A stretch of DNA of 64,000 bases from an uncultured Acidobacteriaceae bacterium (GTDB lineage: Bacteria > Acidobacteriota > Terriglobia > Terriglobales > Acidobacteriaceae): assembly GCA_903849645.1 (NCBI GenBank), contig CAINJJ010000001.1:1-64000 (forward strand). Reading direction: 5' to 3'. Shown here one piece after another: positions 38,625-41,433 of the stretch; the first letter of the stretch is position 1, and each line of letters opens with the position of its first letter. The translations under genes and the position numbers were made by a program. Below the pieces are notes generated by a model, which was not told the DNA's origin, made no database searches, and saw only the letters and a list, made by a program, of their open reading frames with translations.

Positions 38625-41084
38625 CTATCGGGCCGGGGTTGCGTCCCAGTCGAAGCTGAGCTGGGCGATGGCCTGGTTGAGTTTTTCGACGGCGGCCTGT
38701 TTTTGCAGTAAGAGGTCGGCGGTCTGCTTGCGGGTGGTCTGGAGCAGGTCTTCGGCGCGGTTCAGCTCGTCGACAAAGCGTTTGGCGGCGTCGTTGCCCT
38801 TGAGGGCGGTGAGGTTTTCGCGGTCGCGGGCCTCGTCGGCGGAGGCGGTGGCCTCCTGCTTTTGGGATTCAGCGATGCGGGCGTCGAGATCGGCTACACG
38901 GGTCTGGGCGTCGATGACAGGCTTGAGCTGCGCCTGGGCGTTGGGGACGCGGGTGGCGAGGTCGATGAGGTAGCCGGACTGGTTCTGATTAGCGTTGAGG
39001 TAGACGGTGGTGTATTCGGGGCCGCGCTCGCGGACCTCCAGCTTGGCGGTATCGTGAGGGGCCACGGCGAGGCGGAAGCGGTAGAGGTTGGGCGCGGTCT
39101 CGGCGGGCTTGAGGCCTTCGTCGAGGGTCCAGCCGTTGGTGCGGCGGGGGTGCTCCAGGAGGACCACGTGATCGGCATCGCCGGAGTTGGTGGCGGAGTA
39201 GGTGAGGGAGGCGACGTCCATGTAGGTCTCGACCACGGAGCCCTTCTGGATCTGCACATGGTGGAGGGTGCGCTGGCTGTCGCGGGCGGTGACCTTGACG
39301 CGGACGGCCTGGTCGGCGGCGTAGGAGAGCAGGCGGCGCTCGCCGGGATGGATGGGGTCGAGCAGGCCCTCGCCGGCGAACTCGCCGGACTCGAAGATGG
39401 AGAAGCTGCCGGAGTCGAGCGTCAGTTTGGACTTGTTTTCAAGCCAGACGGCGCGGAGCGGTGTGCGTTCGTTCTGGCTCCACAGGGTGACGTGCTCGGC
39501 GGGCAGGTCCTGCTGGAGGATGGGCACCATGGCCGACTCGTTTTTGTGGATGGTGACGGGCTGGGTGAGGGCGTATTCGAAGAAGTCGTCGAAAGCGTTG
39601 GTGGTGACGTCGCCTTCCTGGAGGGCGTCGGAGGCGCGGTCTACGCCGTAACCGTTGCCCATGCTGCCGCTGGAACCGGACAACGCGCCATGGAATGAAC
39701 GTGCTCTCGCAAATGGGCCGGCATTGATGGGAGCGGAAGCCATGACCTTCGGGCTGATGGTATCCGCCTCAACCTCGATCGTCTCAGTTGCGGAACCAAC
39801 ATTGAGACGGACGTTGACGTTGGCGGTCTGCTGGCCGCTCACACTGACGCTTCGCTGTACGTAGGTATTGAACCCCCGGGCTGTAGCAGTCAGCTTGTAT
39901 TGTCCCGAGGCCAGAGGTGTGATGGTGAATGAGCCATCCTCTGAGGATGTTTGTGTGATCGAGGCGTTCGACCCCAGCGATGTTGCGGTGACTGTTGCCC
40001 CCGGGATCACAGCGCCGGTCATGTCCGTGACGATGCCAGAGATTCCGCCAGCGCCGACGGTTTCCGCCGCTTCGTGCGTCTGCGGCGTCAGTTGCGCCTC
40101 GGTGCTGATGGGAATCTCCGGACGCCGCGTGTAAAGCGGCTGGGAGAGCGGCTGGATGAAGCTTTGCGGAGCGCCGGCAACCAGGGAGAGCTGGACGTTG
40201 TCCCAGTCCGCGCCGACGGTGTTATCGACAACCGCCCAGCCCTGCATGGTGGCCGAGCCGTTGGGGACACGCGGAAAAACAAGGCGGTAGGTCGACTTCC
40301 AGACCGGGACCTCGGAGATGTAGCTGACGTGGAGCTCGCGCTGGCCTGTTCCGAGCGAGTCGAGGGTCAGGTGGCGCAGGCCGGTGGAGTGCGTGGTGGA
40401 GAGCAGTTCAAGATAGCGGTCGAGCTGGCCCTGAAGGCTGGCGTCGAGCGGGCGGACGCTGAGCGCCGGGTTGAGCTCGATGACGCGGACCGCGCCGGAG
40501 GCGGCGATGAGGGTGAGGTAGTAGCTGTCGACCGTGGTGGCGCTGTCAGAGGCGCCGACCTTCTGGGTGCGGGACTCGATGGACATGAGGCGGCCGGTGA
40601 TGACGCCGCCCGCGCCGTTCGAGACAGGCCCCCCGGTGACCTCGACGCGCTGGCCGCGGAGGGCCTGGAAGAGTTCGGTGGAGCTGGGGTCGTCGGTCAT
40701 GCCGAGCGACAGCGCCTTGAGCTGCTCGGCCAGGGGCGTGGTGGAGTTGTAGTTGACGCCGCCGACGCGGCCGCCGCCCTGGTCAAGCACCGTGAGCGAC
40801 TGGAGCACGTCGTTGAGCTGGGGCGAGGTGAAGTCGATGGCCACGCGCTGGTTGCCGTTGACGGTGCCGGCATGTTCAAAGTAGCCGACGCCGTTTTTGT
40901 AGAGAACGACCTTGCGCACGGGCAGATCCTTCACCGGCACCTGCGACCCCTGCGGTGGGGCCAACTGCGCCTTCGGCGGCACCTGCGACCCCTGTGGTGG
41001 GGCCAGCTTGGCAGAGGCCGGCGTCTGGGCGGAGAGGGCGGCGGTGAAGGCGAACAGGCTGAAAGCGGCAGCGAAAGGGCGCAT
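38625..41084 (-). CDS. DUF4139 (MuiA-like) exported protein with inserted carboxypeptidase-regulatory domain
   Basis: 819 residues. The signal peptide MRPFAAAFSLFAFTAALSAQ is followed by two copies of LAPPQGSQVP. DUF4140/DUF4139-like sequence then begins (VRKVVLYKNGVGYFEHAG, RELHVSYISEVPVWKSTYRL, WDNVQLSLVAGAPQSF). Near residues 345-435 it is interrupted by a CarboxypepD_reg domain (ISGIVTDMTGAVIPGATVTA, SGQYKLTATARGFNTYVQRS) of the kind found at the N-terminus of acidobacterial TonB receptors. DUF4139 resumes (FFEYALTQPVTIHKNESAMV) and the protein ends in a coiled coil. ATG at 41084 follows AAGGAGG. Function unknown; envelope location inferred. Confidence 0.82.
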   Translation of the reverse strand: MRPFAAAFSLFAFTAALSAQTPASAKLAPPQGSQVPPKAQLAPPQGSQVPVKDLPVRKVVLYKNGVGYFEHAGTVNGNQRVAIDFTSPQLNDVLQSLTVLDQGGGRVGGVNYNSTTPLAEQLKALSLGMTDDPSSTELFQALRGQRVEVTGGPVSNGAGGVITGRLMSIESRTQKVGASDSATTVDSYYLTLIAASGAVRVIELNPALSVRPLDASLQGQLDRYLELLSTTHSTGLRHLTLDSLGTGQRELHVSYISEVPVWKSTYRLVFPRVPNGSATMQGWAVVDNTVGADWDNVQLSLVAGAPQSFIQPLSQPLYTRRPEIPISTEAQLTPQTHEAAETVGAGGISGIVTDMTGAVIPGATVTATSLGSNASITQTSSEDGSFTITPLASGQYKLTATARGFNTYVQRSVSVSGQQTANVNVRLNVGSATETIEVEADTISPKVMASAPINAGPFARARSFHGALSGSSGSMGNGYGVDRASDALQEGDVTTNAFDDFFEYALTQPVTIHKNESAMVPILQQDLPAEHVTLWSQNERTPLRAVWLENKSKLTLDSGSFSIFESGEFAGEGLLDPIHPGERRLLSYAADQAVRVKVTARDSQRTLHHVQIQKGSVVETYMDVASLTYSATNSGDADHVVLLEHPRRTNGWTLDEGLKPAETAPNLYRFRLAVAPHDTAKLEVRERGPEYTTVYLNANQNQSGYLIDLATRVPNAQAQLKPVIDAQTRVADLDARIAESQKQEATASADEARDRENLTALKGNDAAKRFVDELNRAEDLLQTTRKQTADLLLQKQAAVEKLNQAIAQLSFDWDATPAR
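40937..41006. repeat. In-gene tandem repeat encoding LAPPQGSQVP twice
   Basis: Two units, each containing CACCTGCGACCCCTG and GGTGGGGCCA, are 42 bases apart near the 5' end of the DUF4139 gene. The core CTGCGGTGGGGCCA is the same as in the intergenic tandem array at 6154-6270. Confidence 0.7.
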
Positions 41085-41433
41085 CGGGCCTCCTTGGGGC
41101 GGCATGAGGAATGCTACTCTCTTGGACCCCGGCGAACGGGAAATGGTTCCCCGCGCCGCGGTGGATTCCGGAGACCGCCAGGAAAACATCGATGAGCTAT
41201 AAATGGCATCCTGATCGGCCGGGATGAACGAGACTGGTACCTAGACGGGATCCGGCGCGGAAGCGAGGGTTCCGCCCAGGGTGGTTCGGGCGGATGAGAT
41301 GGCCATCCCTGCATGCCTCAGAGCGCGACCGGTGCGCTGCTGGGGGTTTTCCGCCATGCCGGACGGGCCGGTCTGCGACGTTGCACGCGATGTCGCCGAT
41401 GGATGGTCCCGCCCACGATCAGGAGAAGCATCC
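41085..41433. other. Gene-free region
   Basis: About 350 bases between divergent genes (DUF4139 protein and a 61-residue protein). It must hold both promoters; I could not place them with confidence. No gene seen. Confidence 0.4.

Follow-up and report, generated by a model that had tools for sequence, protein, structure and literature searches.

The window, by which we mean the whole 64,000-nucleotide stretch analysed, comes from an uncultured Acidobacteriaceae bacterium and carries on its minus strand a gene for a DUF4139 protein with a receptor-type domain and a TonB box between its two halves. In the order in which the gene is read, its features are:

41089..41095, minus strand: Shine-Dalgarno sequence AAGGAGG, four bases 5' of the ATG at 41084
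38625..41084, minus strand: whole gene, encoding a probably secreted DUF4139 protein of 819 amino acids, plus stop (open reading frame listing and Pfam)
41028..41084, minus strand: probable signal peptide (residues 1-19), with a Pro-rich stretch after it (read by eye)
40152..40931, minus strand: N-terminal half of the DUF4139 protein, residues 52-311 (Pfam, half profiles and AlphaFold2)
40056..40151, minus strand: first disordered tether, residues 312-343 (pLDDT <50 at 312-322 and 324-343)
39795..40049, minus strand: inserted CarboxypepD_reg domain (receptor N-terminal extension, transthyretin-like), residues 346-430 (Pfam, AlphaFold2 and VIA-align)
39612..39791, minus strand: second disordered tether, residues 432-491, Gly/Ser-rich, which houses the TonB box and from which any recognisable plug is gone
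39765..39785, minus strand: TonB box ETIEVEA, residues 434-440 (receptor-built profile and a PROSITE-type pattern)
38628..39596, minus strand: C-terminal half of the DUF4139 protein, residues 497-819 (half profiles and AlphaFold2)

Judged by eye from its N-terminus, the protein is probably secreted. Both of its halves are homologous to other DUF4139 proteins: profiles of the two halves align with them, some relatives are annotated as such, and in tblastn both halves match Azospirillum and Methylobacterium, with further matches of the N-terminal half in Rhizobium, Phyllobacterium and others (E down to 4e-33 overall). Unlike in ordinary family members, the Pfam match to DUF4139 (PF13598; residues 251-466, 101 of 205 profile positions) is interrupted by the insert, and the split match scores 28.9 bits against a gathering cut-off of 31.8. 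Three proteins of the same genus, all without the domain (L247-L249), score 42.1, 41.1 and 37.9 bits, above that cut-off. The source genome has one DUF4139 match. A sequence-only reading of this DNA had called the protein MuiA-like, for which there is weak support: the match to the MuiA family (NCBIfam TIGR02231) at residues 487-599 scores 36.2 bits, far below the cut-off of 112.6, and the protein does not qualify as a member. No plug or barrel family appears among its Pfam matches at E up to 1, and it shows neither a barrel nor any evident membrane anchor.

The same reading had proposed that the DUF4139 fold is split by about 90 residues of receptor type, and both domain search and structure prediction bear this out for the domain itself. 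CarboxypepD_reg (PF13620) matches residues 348-427 with 70.1 bits (E 2.1e-19, gathering cut-off 32.3). The span that separates the two halves is larger than proposed, at about 185 residues (approximately 312-496). In an AlphaFold2 model built with 76 aligned sequences (mean pLDDT 83.1, pTM 0.60), we observed sheet-rich halves, a helical hairpin at about residues 703-808 that ends the C-terminal half, and a disordered loop, and neither a plug nor a 22-strand barrel. Within the loop, the strands of the inserted domain (346-422) have a pLDDT of about 96, and residues 312-322, 324-343 and 432-491 fall below 50. Since the insert is modelled confidently and both its flanks are not, the domain is predicted to be an autonomous unit on two floppy tethers; the model leaves its placement relative to the DUF4139 host unset. 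The best VIA-align match of the inserted domain is 5aq0 (Z 13.4, rmsd 1.3, 81 residues aligned), and the N-terminal extension of SusC (9hfj) matches with Z 11.3 and rmsd 2.1 over 80 residues. In the model of a domain-less relative from Occallatibacter (L051), the insertion site is likewise disordered (pLDDT <50 at 307-318 and 326-414). VIA-align barely probed the sheet-rich halves of this model, returning little for them and, for the helical hairpin, matches with Z of 9.1-11.9, a range common for helices. A PDB sequence search gave three coiled-coil-like matches (E 0.04-0.07). The BFVD matches of the L051 model were giant-virus proteins (Pandoravirus, Tupanvirus and Pithovirus), one of them annotated DUF4139, that resemble the host fold.

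We assembled a family set of 143 distinct DUF4139 proteins having both halves, the window protein included. Four loci were excluded, three for lack of both halves in one frame (L019, L140 and L141) and one likewise for a broken frame (L170), and twenty distant DUF4139 places (L175-L194) were left out for aligning over a short stretch only. The inserted domain is present in 58 of the 143, always at the same site between the same halves, in a set of which one part was ranked by the full-length query, favouring domain-bearing relatives, and another part by the N-terminal half. It is absent from the other 85, including all eight alphaproteobacterial outgroups, two of which are nearly identical. 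Thus, the insert is neither unique to the window protein nor native to the fold, and the single novel fusion first imagined is not borne out; the domain is a recurrent, patchy feature of Acidobacteriota. That it were a native segment, as its constant position in all 58 bearers might suggest, we consider vanishingly improbable, given the 85 family members and every outgroup without it and the disordered loop seen at the site in both the window and L051 models. An assembly or gene-calling artefact that fused a receptor fragment to the gene deserves equally little credence: many relatives are metagenome assemblies, but a single open frame runs through both halves in 58 distinct proteins, among them those of the named strains Acidicapsa dinghuensis 4GSKX (L034) and Bryocella elongata DSM 22489 (L038), and large insert clades match host clades.

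On a tree built from the halves alone, presence and absence of the domain require at least 21 state changes. The window protein belongs to a supported group of 10 rows, in which the domain occurs only in the window protein and L032; most of its near relatives are without it. Among cultured relatives, Terracidiphilus gabretensis has the gene in a domain-less form. Leaving the window aside, the domain was found in 3 of 21 loci of the same genus. These 21 were drawn by DUF4139 family from 25 places other than the window's own, the four omitted being distant frames of 517-556 amino acids; 17 of them were already among the 143, and L260, L261, L265 and L266 are new. The gene itself is patchy in the phylum: the N-terminal half finds a match above 120 bits in 29 of 199 sampled genomes, and 19 further genomes match weakly, at 34 bits or less. 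Two genes, from a record titled Rhodanobacteraceae (L037) and from an Acidimicrobiia assembly (L082), lie inside acidobacterial clades; these assemblies are probably mislabelled.

Outer-membrane nutrient receptors dock onto the energy-transmitting protein TonB through a short tag, the TonB box. Directly after its inserted domain, the window protein reads SATETIEVEAD. Oar-type receptors continue after the domain with a VGxxTETVEVTA-like segment and then with LPLNGRNFxxLxxLxPGV, so that the window protein shows the receptor arrangement of N-terminal extension and then TonB box. Oar has been described as combining an N-terminal extension (PF13620) with a plug that bears a TonB box, a description tested with the substitutions E118R and I122P (from passages of PMC6434023), and the spacing of E to I in these substitutions fits ETVEV. 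The sequence-only reading, which expected a gain of envelope interaction, had overlooked this box, which would make TonB a likelier partner than the envelope in general.

Our initial motif counts used patterns picked after reading the loops; hence, the conclusions rest on profiles built from receptors and on a PROSITE-type pattern. The profile covering linker and plug start, for which 40 receptors alone were used, scored at least 8 bits in 20 of 77 domain-less acidobacterial loops, as against 2 of 1540 shuffled loops, and in none of 77 reversed loops, 8 outgroups or 268 pieces of C-terminal halves. We then split the profile three ways, into box, mid-linker and plug start, with thresholds passed by 1% of shuffles (for the box, 3.0 bits in domain-less loops, 5.2 bits in domain-bearing tails and, for same-genus loops, again 3.0). 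Counting sequences regardless of kinship, we detected the box in 27 of the 77 domain-less loops, where 0.8 were expected, and in 54 of 57 domain-bearing tails, L174 having been omitted from the 58 as too divergent. The mid-linker was detected in 4/77 and 16/57, and the plug start in 15/77 and 6/57, respectively. The box is thus the receptor piece most common where the domain is absent. Pieces of other proteins encoded at the same loci exceeded 3 bits in 9 and 8 bits in none of 1403 cases, against 27 and 15 of the 77 loops. Among same-genus loops, in a set that overlaps the 143, the box profile was matched in 12 of the 18 without the domain. The position of the box ranges from residue 1 to residue 49 of the loop. 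Since the profile found no box in 50 of the 77 domain-less loops, the arm would be dispensable in many lineages; and since 15 of the 77 have a plug start, part of the signal may be plain remnants.

We also used a pattern for the TonB box, the core of PROSITE PS00430. This core occurs once in the window protein, at 434-440. Of 58 domain-bearing loops 19 contain it, against a mean of 0.9 in shuffles, and of 77 domain-less loops 9, against 0.3 (the shuffle maximum being 3 for both); it was also matched in 15 of 40 true receptors and 4 of 21 same-genus loops. In background pieces it was found in 8 of 1403, in C-terminal halves in 4 of 143, and in no N-terminal half (of 143) or outgroup loop (of 8). 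That so few loops of either kind contain this strict pattern, and that four C-terminal halves do, speaks against a docking arm. PS00430 is named as a source for the TonB box in a passage of PMC6118199. The source genome has nine TonB_C matches. We also read 20 further CarboxypepD_reg places in this genome, 18 of which gave readable frames. Sorted by eye alone, ten were receptor-like or truncated receptors, with a box-like segment right after the domain, and the other eight had no such segment there; one of the eight (L230) has a VTVEA-like segment some 25 residues on.

Relatives' loops keep remnants of the start of the receptor plug. The domain-less L132 contains a long plug piece with VDG motifs, and the plug piece of L134 is more decayed. 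Among the 20 domain-bearing loops whose segment ahead of the domain is of sufficient length, a plug-like piece was found there in 4 (L005, L072, L073 and, weakly, L012), where 0.2 were expected, and the plug piece comes ahead of the box in L083 and L104, the reverse of the receptor order. This order would fit either tandem duplication with later deletions or capture on repeated occasions. Between TonB box and plug, two receptor genes of the source genome are each interrupted by one in-frame stop (TAG and TAA): L223, on the minus strand at G000:C30:45400-46900, and L224, on the plus strand at G000:C9:141300-142700. Past the stop the frame is open to the end of the stretch, and ahead of it each leaves a frame of 143-169 amino acids comprising extension domain and box; they are candidate pseudogenes, errors or free-standing TonB-box proteins.

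The insert is homologous to the N-terminus of Oar-type TonB-dependent receptors, comprising the extension domain, the TonB box and, in relatives, the plug start. We compared the 58 inserts with 40 receptor domains, 20 from the source genome and 20 from relatives (L203-L222, selected for resemblance to the window protein), in a tree of few columns. The insert of L032 is the sister of the window insert (99/84), whose nearest neighbours by path are L032, L033 and L034. A wider, weakly supported fork (80/80) also includes L036 and a receptor domain of the source genome, L145. The insert label needs 8 changes on this tree, and inserts formed one clade in 0 of 200 bootstrap trees; together with the place of L145, this makes several insertions or exchanges possible. 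A single clade of 57 inserts (L174 left out as too divergent) has a log-likelihood 11.3 lower and is not rejected (p-AU 0.32). Hence, a single origin is neither rejected nor demonstrated. In BLAST comparisons, the window insert scored 99 bits with the insert of L032, 98 with L033 and 79 with L034, and 83 bits or less with the 20 receptor domains of relatives. The source genome has 61 CarboxypepD_reg matches, 34 of them in open frames of more than 1000 amino acids and so of receptor size; the 40 places that were fetched scored 70 bits or less. The comparison thus lends no support to recent capture from one of the genome's own receptors, the best of these 40 of 61 places falling well short of the L032 and L033 inserts. 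Large insert clades agree with host clades. It is well supported, though by inference, that the window copy descends from an ancestor which it shares with L032 and L033, and likewise that the domain has been lost from most of the rest of its clade.

Domain exchange is also possible, because near pairs show a domain far more diverged than its host, at silent sites too. In the pair L066/L069, the host halves are 97-98% identical and the domain 69%, and dS is 0.87 in the domain against 0.21-0.23 in the host, about four-fold; in L064/L068, it is 0.49 against 0.15-0.24. The divergence of the L066/L069 domain would fit exchange of the domain or local hypervariability.

In one domain-bearing clade (L061, L063, L064, L068, L070, L072, L073 and L097), a gene of the lptC/lptA family lies downstream on the same strand in all eight loci, at up to about 2 kb. 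Upstream of the DUF4139 gene, seven of the eight have a recJ-family gene, at a gap of 20-55 bases in six and 924 in the seventh; an ABC gene and rpoN lie further downstream in several. With names assigned by Pfam on one representative per family, this gene order would fit a role in the envelope. The surroundings of the window gene are different. Of its neighbour genes, DinB recurs in 17 of 72 loci, the ABC gene in 12 (scores 56-162), and the permease and PIG-L in one each; RnhB, MsrP, MsrQ and ClpC were found in none of the 72.

The anatomy of the insert and its receptor origin are well supported. We propose that a disordered loop in a secreted DUF4139 protein received the N-terminal cassette of a receptor, and that this cassette has often been eroded and probably now serves as a TonB-docking arm, an account that, as a whole, we place a little short of an even chance. 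For the loop as a putative docking arm, taken by itself, our inference is more tentative. In the periplasm, the TonB box of the window protein would pair with TonB's C-terminal domain; the extension domain may help to select among several TonB proteins, as a specificity element of the kind suggested for SusC in passages of PMC7782687. The DUF4139 protein could thereby be tethered to the Ton machinery, driven by it or competing for it. Going by the MuiA name and the lpt neighbourhood of one clade, one might guess that its cellular output concerns the outer membrane or polysaccharides.

A serious alternative, to which we would give roughly a third of our belief, is that a receptor N-terminus was accidentally inserted into a loop tolerant of changes in length and is decaying, its boxes and plug pieces being functionless leftovers. 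Domain-less proteins outnumber domain-bearing ones near the window, the host tree has its many state changes, and plug pieces, expected to be useless outside a barrel, persist in loops without the domain. Furthermore, dN/dS of the domain exceeds that of the host N-terminal half in 8 of 8 near pairs, so that the domain is less constrained, which counts against the docking arm; but at about 0.06-0.29 it is still low for an inert remnant, and a divergent copy retains a full-strength profile score. The box persists in nearly all domain-bearing tails, against far fewer mid-linkers and plug starts, although it adjoins the domain, and the strand after the domain could be retained as part of it. Its presence in two-thirds of the same-genus domain-less loops also argues against mere decay.

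We consider it improbable that the domain serves as a general module for adhesion or protein binding (transthyretin-like, CNA-B-like) and acts independently of TonB, for example by binding an envelope protein or glycan. Its Foldseek and VIA matches do include pilin, S-layer and carbohydrate-enzyme accessory domains, and residues 328-502 weakly match an NCBIfam anammox S-layer family (46.2 bits, far below the cut-off of 1400); however, the receptor-type linker and plug pieces indicate a receptor source, and the box occurs without the domain.

The proposed docking arm resembles several known systems in part. Like Oar-type TonB-dependent transporters, it has the extension ahead of the TonB box, with plug-start remnants in relatives; unlike them, the window protein has no plug domain proper or beta-barrel, and the cassette sits inside another protein. 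According to passages of PMC7782687, the extension of SusC (Bt1763) has a transthyretin-like fold with the same best structural match as the window's inserted domain, and is directly followed by an unstructured, flexible TonB box; its purpose is left open there, with specificity among TonB proteins suggested. The SusC extension is a free transporter N-terminus, whereas the window domain is tethered at both ends in a loop. TonB-dependent colicins are also non-barrel proteins with a TonB box (in passages of PMC11658791), but they are imported bacteriocins, and the window protein is chromosomal, apparently periplasmic and the cell's own. In passages of PMC11658791, PMC7782687, PMC6434023 and PMC6118199, TonB boxes belong to outer-membrane transporters and to bacteriocins that exploit them. 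Our literature search found nothing connecting DUF4139, itself rarely named, with the CarboxypepD_reg domain or TonB. Within that literature the parts are of known kinds; what appears new is their combination, its erosion series and a box that persists where the domain is missing.

For Acidobacteriota, our analysis raises the idea, rather unlikely on present evidence, that a periplasmic non-barrel protein has turned Ton client, that the box would be kept as a free-standing short linear motif after loss of the domain, and that TonB would deliver proton-motive force to a non-transporter. A chromosomal protein spread through this phylum, with a TonB box in one of its loops, would rank as a candidate TonB partner that is not itself a transporter. 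The box also gives a handle on DUF4139, and the natural series of domain plus box, box alone, plug remnant and nothing helps to ask what the receptor extension is for.
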